Part shown: positions 7,812-63,436 of the stretch, piece after piece
Numbering within the stretch: position 1 is the stretch's first letter
Layout of the letters: every line of letters begins with the position of its first letter
Source of the DNA: Deltaproteobacteria bacterium
Lineage (GTDB): Bacteria; Desulfobacterota; Desulfuromonadia; Desulfuromonadales; Geopsychrobacteraceae
Length of the DNA stretch: 64,000 nucleotides
Assembly (NCBI GenBank): GCA_018399135.1
Contig: JAGYPB010000006.1
Coordinates: forward strand, 1-64,000
Direction of reading: 5' to 3'
Translations under genes and position numbers: made by a program
The notes under the pieces: generated by a model
What the model was told of the DNA's origin: nothing
What the model saw: only the letters and a program-made list of their open reading frames with translations
The model's database searches: none

Positions 7812-7955
7812 ATACCTCTGTTTTGCGCAGCATAGGGGGTCCTGTGATGAGGGTGTCTGTCGTCATGGACGGCGTCAGCAAGCACTCAGGGATGACCCAA
7901 CGGGAAACAATCGCGTCCGTTACCATAGGATCCCCTATCCGATGCTAACAGATAC
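7808..7955 (+). repeat. Long MITE-like element, diverged copy
   Basis: The interior matches the other long copies closely (GTCATGGACGGCG, GGATGACCCAACGGGAAAC, ATAGGATCCCCTATCC). The right end GATGCTAACAGATAC is recognisable but the left end (GTAAATACCTC) has drifted and no direct repeat flanks it, so this is probably an old insertion. The TAA stop of the upstream transporter (7809-7811) lies inside its first four bases. Confidence 0.75.
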
Positions 7956-25248: not shown

Positions 25249-26190
25249 TCAATTGTCATCTGTTTTTGTCGGAACAAGTGATTCTGCTTCATTGGACAGA
25301 ACAAAACGATAGTTGTCTTCGTCCCAGCGATAAGAACCTGAATGCCAGATCTGCTCGACCTGATACCATTCGTGATCAAGTTCAGAGGTGTTTTCGGTCA
25401 ACTCTGAAAAGATCAGAATCTCCATGTCATCAATAACATAGTTAGCGTTGGTATCAACCCAATGAAATGGTCTGATACTGGTTCTTTGATCCGGATATAA
25501 GGGCAAGACAAATTGCTGCCCGTCAGGATTGGCAATCAACTCACCACTGACCGATATTTTGCTGTTTAAAGGAACATCCTGAGGAACGCCAAGACGGTAA
25601 TAAACCTGTGTATGAGTTTCCGGATTGCGAAAAATCCATCTGGCAACCCCGGTCGCCGTATCGACACTGGTAGCTTCAGGTTCAGAAGAAATAAATATCC
25701 ATCCGGGAGGAAACTCTTCCTTAAGGATCATCCCCTTTATCGGAGTCTCTGCTGAAATTTCCAGTTGCACCAGAAGTTCATGCCCTGGAGCGACATGGAG
25801 TGGCAGGACTCTTTGTGCCTGTAATTGTGGTTCAGAAGAAATATCCGGAAGCGCATAAAAAAACCAGAATATAAATAAAGTAATCAACACAAATGCCGCT
25901 AAAAACCAGGCCTTTATGATGAAGGATCCGGGTCGTCTGATTTCCTCTACGGCCTGAGCCTGAACATCCACTTTGAGTATTTCGTCAAGATCAACTTCAA
26001 GAGCTTCAGCCAGTTTAACGGCGTTATCGCGCCTGATAGTTGGATAACGATTATTTTCCCAACGCGAAACGGTGTCGGTAGTTACCCCAACCACCTTTGA
26101 TACATAAAATTGGGTAAGACGTTTATCTTCACGGATACGTCGTAAAGCTGTGCCGTCAACAGCAACTGATGATGAATCTAATAAGGTCAT
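25249..26190 (-). CDS. Membrane-anchored HTH protein with extracytoplasmic beta domain
   Basis: A 313-residue protein with an unusual order. Residues ~15-70 form an XRE-type helix-turn-helix (RIREDKRLTQFYVSKVVGV, VSRWENNRYPT). After a short linker comes one transmembrane helix (~94-113). The remaining ~200 residues are outside the membrane: a beta-sandwich-like region (~125-230) and a calcium-loop-like stretch DTNANYVIDDME (246-257) reminiscent of dockerin/EF-hand loops, then a Trp/Tyr-rich end. The layout recalls RodZ or one-component membrane sensors, but I do not recognise the outer domain. It could carry an envelope signal to DNA directly; its divergent neighbour is the candidate small RNA at 26341. 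Confidence 0.75.
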   Translation of the reverse strand: MTLLDSSSVAVDGTALRRIREDKRLTQFYVSKVVGVTTDTVSRWENNRYPTIRRDNAVKLAEALEVDLDEILKVDVQAQAVEEIRRPGSFIIKAWFLAAFVLITLFIFWFFYALPDISSEPQLQAQRVLPLHVAPGHELLVQLEISAETPIKGMILKEEFPPGWIFISSEPEATSVDTATGVARWIFRNPETHTQVYYRLGVPQDVPLNSKISVSGELIANPDGQQFVLPLYPDQRTSIRPFHWVDTNANYVIDDMEILIFSELTENTSELDHEWYQVEQIWHSGSYRWDEDNYRFVLSNEAESLVPTKTDDN

Positions 26191-26340
26191 GGCGTTTCTA
26201 TCTGCATCATGGTTTCACGATCAACAAAATCTACCAGAAACATAATGACGATGTAAACCACTGAAGTCATTTGTTTTATAACTGGATATCCGACATTCGT
26301 TAAAAAATATTATGATATTTAAATTATTTTTTATTTTTAG

Positions 26341-26368
26341 TTGACATTAATTGTTAGACAGCTATAAT
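26341..26368 (+). promoter_or_regulatory. Consensus sigma-70 promoter of the candidate small RNA
   Basis: TTGACA (26341-26346), a 16-base spacer and TATAAT (26363-26368); both boxes are 6/6. The preceding 40 bases are almost pure A/T and could act as an UP element. No open reading frame follows before a terminator at 26397, so the promoter has no protein-coding client. Confidence 0.85.
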
Positions 26369-26374
26369 AGAACC

Positions 26375-26433
26375 CAGGAATAAAGAAAACAGCTTAGCCT
26401 CGCGTTCTACCTCCTGGCGCGGGGCATTTTTTT
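26375..26433 (+). ncRNA. Candidate small RNA (~60 nt) with CCUCCU terminator loop
   Basis: Predicted transcript from about seven bases after the TATAAT box to the end of an intrinsic terminator. The body (about 22 nt) is unstructured and A-rich with AGGA. The 3' end is a hairpin of GCCTCGCG and CGCGGGGC (one G-U pair) with a 13-base loop containing ACCTCCTGG, followed by seven U. CCUCCU is complementary to Shine-Dalgarno sequences, a design seen in riboregulators that block translation. An Hfq gene is present in this window. No homologous RNA family is recognised; this rests on promoter, terminator and absence of an ORF. Confidence 0.6.
26397..26433 (+). terminator. Intrinsic terminator of the candidate small RNA
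   Basis: GCCTCGCG (26397-26404) pairs with CGCGGGGC (26418-26425), followed by A and seven T. A long MITE-like element begins immediately after the T-tract, and another seven T flank its far end (26589-26595). Confidence 0.8.
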
Positions 26434-26588
26434 ATAACTATTCAGCTCTATACTTGCGCAGGGCCTTCGGATCCTGTGGCAAGAGTGTCTGTCGCCATGG
26501 ACGGCGACAGCAAGCGGTCATGGATGACCCAACGGGAAACAATCACGTCCCTTGACATAGGATCCCCTATCCGTTGCTGAACAAATAC
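26434..26588 (+). repeat. Long MITE-like element (155 bp) at a terminator T-tract
   Basis: Left end ATAACTATTCAGC (26434-26446), right end GCTGAACAAATAC (26576-26588). The interior is nearly identical to the copy at 29120. It includes CTGTCGCC/GGCGACAG and GGATCCTGTG/CATAGGATCC pairings that allow a long folded structure. Runs of seven T stand on both sides, consistent with a duplicated T-rich target. Confidence 0.85.
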
Positions 26589-26601
26589 TTTTTTTCTAGC
26601 T

Positions 26602-50281: not shown

Positions 50282-50515
50282 TCAGTCACGCCCACCATGC
50301 AAACAAAATGTGCCGTCAGTTGAAGTGATGGTACTGACGGAGTGCTTATAGATCAGAATATCCCCTTCGCTTTCCACCAGAATACAGAAACTGTCGAAGG
50401 ATTTGATGTAACCGGTCAAACGCTCTCCTGACATCAATATAATGACAATTTTAACGCGTTCCTTGCGAGCCTGATTGAGATACTGATCCTGAATATTAAA
50501 TGGTGATTTGGCCAT
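50282..50515 (-). CDS. hfq: RNA chaperone Hfq
   Basis: Hexameric Sm-like RNA-binding protein of 77 residues. The Sm1 region (FNIQDQYLNQARKERVKIVI with the Gln8-type contact, GYIKSFDSFCILV) and Sm2 motif YKHSVSTI are intact; the E. coli form is YKHAIST. There is only a short C-terminal tail, typical outside gamma-proteobacteria. It shares 20 bases with the end of miaA, a conserved gene order mutL-miaA-hfq. It is the likely helper for small-RNA action in this organism. Confidence 0.96.
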   Translation of the reverse strand: MAKSPFNIQDQYLNQARKERVKIVIILMSGERLTGYIKSFDSFCILVESEGDILIYKHSVSTITSTDGTFCLHGGRD

Positions 50516-62348: not shown

Positions 62349-62491
62349 GTAACTATTCAGCACTGTCCTGGCGCAGGGTCGGGGGTCCTGTGACAAGAGT
62401 GTTTGTCGCCATGGAAGGCAACAACAAGCGGTCATGGATGACGAAAAGCGTCCCTTGACACAGGATTCCCGATCCGGTGCTGAACAGATAC
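62349..62491 (+). repeat. Long MITE-like element (143 bp) with perfect 8-bp target duplication
   Basis: Left end GTAACTATTCAGC (62349-62361), right end GCTGAACAGATAC (62479-62491). CCTTATTC stands directly before (62341-62348) and after (62492-62499). Compared with other copies it lacks about ten bases in the GGGAAACAATC region. It lies exactly between the pyrD stop and the ribosome-binding site of the fusion gene. Confidence 0.92.
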
Positions 62492-62497
62492 CCTTAT

Positions 62498-63436
62498 TCA
62501 AACTTTCAGTGACCCGATCAGCTCATTAATATCATCGACCCCCTCCGCCAGACAGAAGGTTTCCAGGTCTGCAATAATCGTTGCCATGGCATTCGGGTCA
62601 ACAAAGTTGGCGGTACCAACCTGCACCGCTGTTGCCCCGACAATCAGAAATTCCAGGGCGTCCATAGCGCGAGAAATACCACCGATACCAATCACCGGAA
62701 CCTTCACCGCCTGCACCACCTGATGCACCAGACGCACAGCAATGGGGCGGATAGCCGGGCCCGACAGGCCACCAATGGTGTTAGCCAGGCGCGGCCGCCG
62801 GGTTTTTACATCCACTGCCATTCCGGTAAGGGTGTTGATCAGACTGATGGCATCGGCGCCAGCTTCCTCAACAGCACGGGCGGTCACCTGAATATCGGTG
62901 ACATTAGGTGTTAATTTGACAATCAGCGGTTTGCTGGTTTTTTTACGCACCGCAGCAACAGTAGCAAAAGCGGCTTTGGGATCCGTCCCGAAAACAATGC
63001 CACCATGCTTGACATTGGGGCAGGAAATATTCATCTCCAGACCGGCAACGCCAGGCAGCTCATCAAGACGGGCAGCAACCTCGCCGTATTCTTCCTGGGT
63101 GTTACCGAAAAAATTCACAATGACCGGGGTATCAAACTGTTTCAGAAATGGCATTTTCTGATAGATAAAATGCTCAATGCCAACATTCTGCAGACCAATC
63201 GCGTTAAGCATGCCTCCAACGGTTTCACAAACCCGCGGCGTATTGTTGCCGGCCTTGGGATGAAGGGAAAGCCCTTTAGTAACAATAGCTCCGAGAGAAT
63301 TTAAATCCAGATAAGGCGCATATTCTTCCCCGTACCCGAAAGTACCGGATGCCGGCATAATCGGATTTTTCAACCTGATGCCGGCAATATCAACCTGCAG
63401 ATGAACAGTTTTATCGATCTTCTCTCTTCTTTTCAT
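62498..63436 (-). CDS. pyrD: Dihydroorotate dehydrogenase B, catalytic subunit
   Basis: FMN enzyme of 312 residues that oxidises dihydroorotate to orotate in pyrimidine synthesis. The class 1B pattern is clear: KNPIMPASGTFGYGEEY, NAIGLQNVG, NISCPNVKHGG with the active-site Cys, KLTPNV, NTLTGM and IGIGGISRAMDALEFLIVGA. Class 1B enzymes pass electrons to NAD via PyrK, whose gene lies directly upstream with an ATGA overlap. The element at 62349 follows the stop directly. Confidence 0.96.
   Translation of the reverse strand: MKRREKIDKTVHLQVDIAGIRLKNPIMPASGTFGYGEEYAPYLDLNSLGAIVTKGLSLHPKAGNNTPRVCETVGGMLNAIGLQNVGIEHFIYQKMPFLKQFDTPVIVNFFGNTQEEYGEVAARLDELPGVAGLEMNISCPNVKHGGIVFGTDPKAAFATVAAVRKKTSKPLIVKLTPNVTDIQVTARAVEEAGADAISLINTLTGMAVDVKTRRPRLANTIGGLSGPAIRPIAVRLVHQVVQAVKVPVIGIGGISRAMDALEFLIVGATAVQVGTANFVDPNAMATIIADLETFCLAEGVDDINELIGSLKV

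Follow-up and report, generated by a model that had tools for sequence, protein, structure and literature searches.

The alpha-r14/cuckoo RNAs, among them NfeR1 and SmelA075, are trans-acting and are thought to bind the Shine-Dalgarno (SD) sites of many mRNAs (PMC10746234, PMC3927594). For LhrC1-5 of Listeria, mutational analysis demonstrated binding of target mRNA by the terminator loop (PMC4132741). The Betaproteobacteria toxic small RNA (RF02278) measures 57-92 nt in B. cenocepacia (PMC4603805), and the atoC RNA (RF01733), described from delta-Proteobacteria by Weinberg et al. (2010), is listed as probable cis-regulatory (PMC2864571). Here we describe a predicted small RNA (sRNA) of about 59 nt, at positions 26375-26433 on the plus strand of a 64-kb window (the whole stretch of DNA analysed), which forms a new family within a known type, the anti-SD loop sRNAs.

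The window RNA shares with the alpha-r14/cuckoo RNAs a constant anti-SD loop on freely varying stems (PMC10746234, PMC3927594). However, those RNAs have CCUCCUCCC in each of their three or four hairpins and come from a different class of bacteria, whereas the window RNA has a single hairpin, with CCUCCUG, placed in the terminator; RF02344, with its three hairpins and CCUCCUCCC loops, was absent among the window matches up to E 10. In LhrC1-5, a CU-rich anti-SD motif occupies both the terminator loop and a single-stranded stretch, an arrangement similar to the CUCUCUC stretch and CCUCC loop carried by relatives of the window RNA, but their UCCC motif, further 5' hairpin and Firmicute host set them apart, with no sequence relation shown. 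The RF02278 RNA is likewise short, multicopy within a genome and GC-rich at its terminator end, but its model holds CCUCC in the 5' hairpin and not in the terminator loop. A search of the window up to E 10 returned no match to it (gathering score, 50 bits), and L031, one of the sibling hairpins described below, matched only weakly (25.2 bits).

The atoC RNA occurs in the same order as the window RNA, and its 3' hairpin consensus has a CCCUCCU loop and a U-tract. Unlike the window RNA, it spans 93 positions, includes a second, upstream hairpin and occupies other loci. The window RNA scored 13.2 bits (E 3.4) against RF01733, below the gathering cut-off of 50 bits, and the atoC RNA had no match in the window's genus (genomes G000-G003). 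The original prediction, made from the letters of this DNA, recognised no known RNA family, and indeed no Rfam family covers the sRNA: the window had no match at the gathering threshold and chance-level matches only under relaxed settings (up to E 10).

The Geobacter/Desulfuromonas line is important for metal reduction and microbial electricity, and its small RNAs seem, to our knowledge, to be little known. Our literature search found no such sRNA family for this line, in which an sRNA that is conserved and has an evident seed offers a direct entry to post-transcriptional control.

Promoter, terminator hairpin and loop

The sigma-70 promoter (26324-26368, plus strand) comprises an A/T-rich upstream stretch, a TTTAGTTGACATTAAT block that contains the -35 box, a 16-nt spacer and the -10 box. 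TTGACA (26341-26346) and TATAAT (26363-26368) match the consensus at 12 of 12 positions, and this pair of boxes with a 16-18 nt spacer occurs only once on the two strands of the window, against 0.01 occurrences expected from shuffles. The perfect boxes and A/T-rich flank that had been predicted are present, and the pair of boxes is unique in the window. Such a strong housekeeping-type promoter would drive the sRNA gene, and we infer that the predicted sRNA is transcribed from it, with its start placed from the -10 box and its end from the U-tract.

No start codon (ATG, GTG or TTG) lies within 26375-26433, which rules out a hidden small ORF and bears out the earlier statement that no reading frame fits between promoter and terminator. 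The terminator hairpin (26397-26425, plus strand), supported by covariation and by folding, begins 22 bases after the predicted start with an 8-bp G/C stem, GCCUCGCG (26397-26404) pairing with CGCGGGGC (26418-26425). A single A separates this stem from seven T, in agreement with the G/C hairpin and seven U of the prediction. The resulting U7 tract (26427-26433, plus strand), matched by a T-tract in all orthologs, forms the tail of an intrinsic terminator and a potential Hfq-binding 3' end. Between the stem arms, the 13-nt loop UUCUACCUCCUGG (26405-26417, plus strand) carries the anti-SD core CCUCCU at 26410-26415, and its ACCUCCU stretch has an unpaired probability of about 0.9 or more. The RNA folds with an energy of -16.8 kcal/mol; the hairpin is short and by itself has no exceptional stability relative to shuffles (z = -1.5), so the case rests on conservation.

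Conservation of the locus within its family

A nucleotide search of 60 relatives recovered the region in all three further genomes of Pelovirga, the window's genus (assigned to Geobacterales by NCBI), and in many genomes of the family. The ortholog-bearing taxa are Pelovirga (Pelovirga terrestris), Malonomonas rubra, Desulfuromusa kysingii and related metagenome assemblies. Within this family, about 30 genomes carry the combination of promoter, hairpin and loop. The hairpin was present at each of the 20 loci retrieved, and the promoter layout was the same at almost every one. A covariance model matches the window at 26370-26432 with 60.4 bits (E 2e-8). It scored strongly (E of about 1e-6 or lower) across most of the family, at about 31 places; elsewhere in the order it found only weaker kin, and in other orders of the class hardly any matches (two genomes). 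A phage or plasmid origin was rejected, as neither the phage nor the plasmid collection contained similar DNA.

Three blocks are constrained in the alignments: the promoter, a CUCUCUC stretch carried by many relatives and lost in the window's genus, and the hairpin. The conserved promoter block is TTTAGTTGACNTTAAT, with TATAAT 16 nt downstream. Across the 23 orthologs of the promoter alignment, TTTAGTTGAC and TTAAT are conserved, and the spacer measures 16 nt in 21 and 17 nt in two. The 5' part of the RNA is free to vary while the loop core CCUCCUG stays invariant, in 27 of 27 aligned hairpins. In the genus g5, the promoter block/flank and the 5' half have been replaced, yet the gene keeps its place at ppaC and CCCUCCUG in its loop.

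All stem cells (100%) are paired. The 22-sequence alignment of the first-found orthologs holds one-sided stem changes only; the two-sided changes derive from L086, from the g5 orthologs and from the sibling hairpins. Once g5 and the sibling hairpins are included, four of the eight stem pairs have compensatory changes, and the stem covariation score lies above all 500 shuffles. Within the family, one ortholog has A-U in place of a stem G-C, and two have an exchanged closing pair; the clearest compensatory case is L086, with GCCCCACG/CGUGGGGC against GCCCCGYG/CGCGGGGC. The original prediction had named conservation of the promoter and loop, together with a covarying stem, as what would support the RNA, and this is the pattern found.

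The locus thus has its own promoter, no ORF, a terminator and interspecies conservation as a unit, the features of an independently transcribed, intrinsically terminated sRNA. These comparisons show a stand-alone gene for a predicted small RNA, complete with promoter, hairpin, terminator and invariant loop. On this comparative evidence, it is a real, previously unlisted sRNA gene.

Proposed mechanism and competing explanations

Given the invariant loop, its accessibility, the duplex energies and the precedents of LhrC and the alpha-r14/cuckoo RNAs, we judge SD pairing to be the most likely mechanism: the window RNA probably acts in trans and represses translation through pairing of its terminator loop with AGGAGG ribosome-binding sites, with the likely help of Hfq. 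The intrinsic terminator would end a trans-acting RNA of about 60 nt, whose 13-nt apical loop would expose (A/C)CCUCCUG. This stretch would pair with AGGAGG-type ribosome-binding sites of mRNAs, and the pairing would block 30S binding and so lower translation of the target mRNAs. A conserved CCUCC in an unpaired loop is what characterizes anti-SD loop sRNAs, and the predicted capacity of the loop to pair with GGAGG-type sites is upheld by its open structure and by computed duplex energies, which are -10.8 kcal/mol for a plain AAGGAGGAA site and -27 for a full complement. From these features we infer SD pairing, repression and Hfq dependence, translation blocking being deduced from the invariance of the anti-SD loop. 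The locus also suggests that a terminator loop itself can act as a seed.

The U7 tail and an A-rich 5' stretch would be suited to Hfq. As noted in the original prediction, hfq lies within the window (50315-50494, minus strand; PF17209, E 2.5e-24); it is the sole match in the genome and the candidate chaperone gene. An hfq gene in the genome and a U-tract of at least seven at the 3' end are the sequence features of an Hfq-associated sRNA. Candidate targets were searched for in nine genomes with the 9-nt complement in the pattern CAGGAGGGA-N-ATG. Each genome has two to four sites with CAGGAGGGA followed by ATG, and no convincing target was shared across the nine. Recurrent genes were ilvE (three of nine genomes), ihfA (two of nine) and a gene for an alpha-E-type protein (two of nine), which we regard as leads and no more.

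The strong conservation of the loop would be equally compatible with an RNA that acts mainly via protein, titrating or scaffolding an RNA-binding protein for which the loop is the recognition site, and a CsrA-like motif, CAGGA, is present at the Pelovirga 5' end in two species. Yet CAGGA is unconserved beyond these two species, the loop lacks GGA, and different RNAs preserve the letters CCUCC(U) in loops of varying length and stem context, the pattern that base pairing would produce; we therefore consider a protein-directed role unlikely. The same anti-SD design would also suit a sponge, in which the CCUCC loop captures a GGAGG-rich RNA (an sRNA or an mRNA fragment) instead of repressing mRNAs. 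However, hairpins with CCTCC loops lie on the sRNA strand at many unrelated loci, GGAGG loops are rare in the equivalent position and no partner RNA was identified, so that a sponge appears less probable still.

It could also be argued that the locus holds no regulatory RNA and consists of a leftover or generic terminator and a strong promoter-like sequence, given that intrinsic terminators are common and the stability of this hairpin is unexceptional. Ordinary terminators in 400 kb from each of two relatives, however, have CCTCC loops in only 3 of 36 and 4 of 44 cases, nearly all on GCCCC-type stems, and about 30 species have conserved promoter and hairpin together in one fixed genomic position. 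A generic terminator was rejected on the rarity of such loops, and we hold this to be the least likely of the readings considered here. Lastly, the main biology of the same RNA gene might lie in promoter control, with TTTAGTTGACNTTAAT as the operator of a dedicated regulator. TTAAT, downstream of the -35 box, varies less than the final base of that box, which makes a bound regulator possible, and the motif TTAGTTGACNTTAAT has exactly one occurrence per genome, at the sRNA locus. Nevertheless, no matching regulator was found, and the neighbouring HTH gene is present also in genomes without the motif. As an account of the main biology this is very unlikely, and it would complement, not contradict, translational repression through the terminator loop, which we continue to prefer. 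A regulon operator was rejected for this motif because each genome has a single site.

Sibling RNAs and genomic neighbourhood

The main added interest of the window RNA is as a pointer to an order-wide RNA group with a common anti-SD terminator loop. Secondary matches were other RNAs, with a GCCCC-type stem, a CCUCC(U) loop and a U-tract behind unrelated 5' parts. Several intrinsic terminators with CCUCC loops occur per genome across the order, and their 5' parts and promoters differ. In ten genomes, the pattern CCTCC...GGGG-TTTTTT gave 71 match lines, compared with 17 for CCACC and 7 for GGAGG, an enrichment that is approximate because overlapping matches were counted repeatedly and CCTCC is able to pair with the 3' arm. 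We tentatively propose, at somewhat less than even confidence, that the order may possess a modular repertoire of sibling sRNAs, with several in each genome, that combine a shared anti-SD terminator-loop seed with differing promoters (sigma-70 and apparently sigma-54) and 5' domains, which would feed many signals into one translation-repressing module. The window RNA would be the single-locus member with the highest conservation in its family, and the atoC RNA an earlier-described member. The window RNA also suggests that the atoC motif of Rfam may be part of a larger set of stand-alone anti-SD RNAs.

Several further observations concern these siblings. Sigma-54-like -24/-12 elements, for example TGGCACCGGTGTTGCT, lie upstream of L024, L030, L031, L032, L038 and L039; TGGCAC-N5-TTGCT and its variants precede L024, L030, L031, L032 and L039 and read as sigma-54 promoters, which suggests activator-controlled sibling sRNAs. 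Tandem arrays of two or three hairpin RNAs with CCUCC or CUCCC loops within about 500 bp were seen at L027, L094, L108 and L111. A second RNA type, present in the window's own genome (L021:1490-1600) and at L022, L023, L029, L099, L116, L117, L103 and L127, consists of a 5' hairpin with the constant loop GYUGUGGCAGGC, a CU-rich linker and a CCUCC-loop terminator. Its 5' stem has compensatory variants (CAAATAC/GUAUUU, AUCAAC/GUUGAU and CAUCGACG/CGUCGAUG), and Rfam gave no match for L021, L028 or L029 up to E 1. About 60 nt upstream of GYUGUGGCAGGC, L103, L112, L115, L127 and L176 share TTACGNNNNNCACGTNTATTT, perhaps a regulator site for part of this second type.

The sRNA usually adjoins a convergent ppaC-like gene, with an HTH gene on the opposite side. 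In the window, the ppaC-like inorganic pyrophosphatase gene (26602-28287, minus strand; DHH/DHHA2/CBS/DRTGG domains by Pfam), a syntenic anchor across genera, is the next gene after the terminator; being convergent and ending at 26602, it agrees with the earlier remark that no gene follows. At L118, beside ppaC in the complete genome G007, the loop UUCUCCCUCCUGAC is retained and the stem and U-tract are broken, apparently a decaying copy of the sRNA. The divergent, syntenic neighbour (25249-26190, minus strand; HTH_3 by Pfam) encodes the predicted protein with an N-terminal HTH and a hydrophobic stretch. The suggestion that it could control the RNA found no support: throughout the order the gene occurs in a single copy, even in genomes devoid of the promoter motif, and it was rejected as a dedicated regulator on these grounds. 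It is an ancestral single-copy gene of the order, not tied to the sRNA and unlikely to be its dedicated regulator. In Malonomonas, the HTH gene and the sRNA are separated by a ppcA-like gene for a small multihaem cytochrome (L016, about 1010-1400), which is absent at the corresponding place in the window and its genus.

Rather than neutral spacer, the 170 bp separating the terminator from ppaC consist mostly of a high-copy repeat element. Copies of this repeat of about 150-160 bp lie at about 26435-26594, directly behind the sRNA terminator, and at 29121-29268, 7837-7955 and 62350-62499. Three of the four Pelovirga genomes have at least about 40 copies each, and the fourth has 11 matches. The element, a MITE-like or structured repeat, is bounded by inverted repeats that match imperfectly (GTAACTATTCAGC ... 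GCTGAACAGATAC) and contains the hairpin CTGTCGCCATGGACGGCGACAG.
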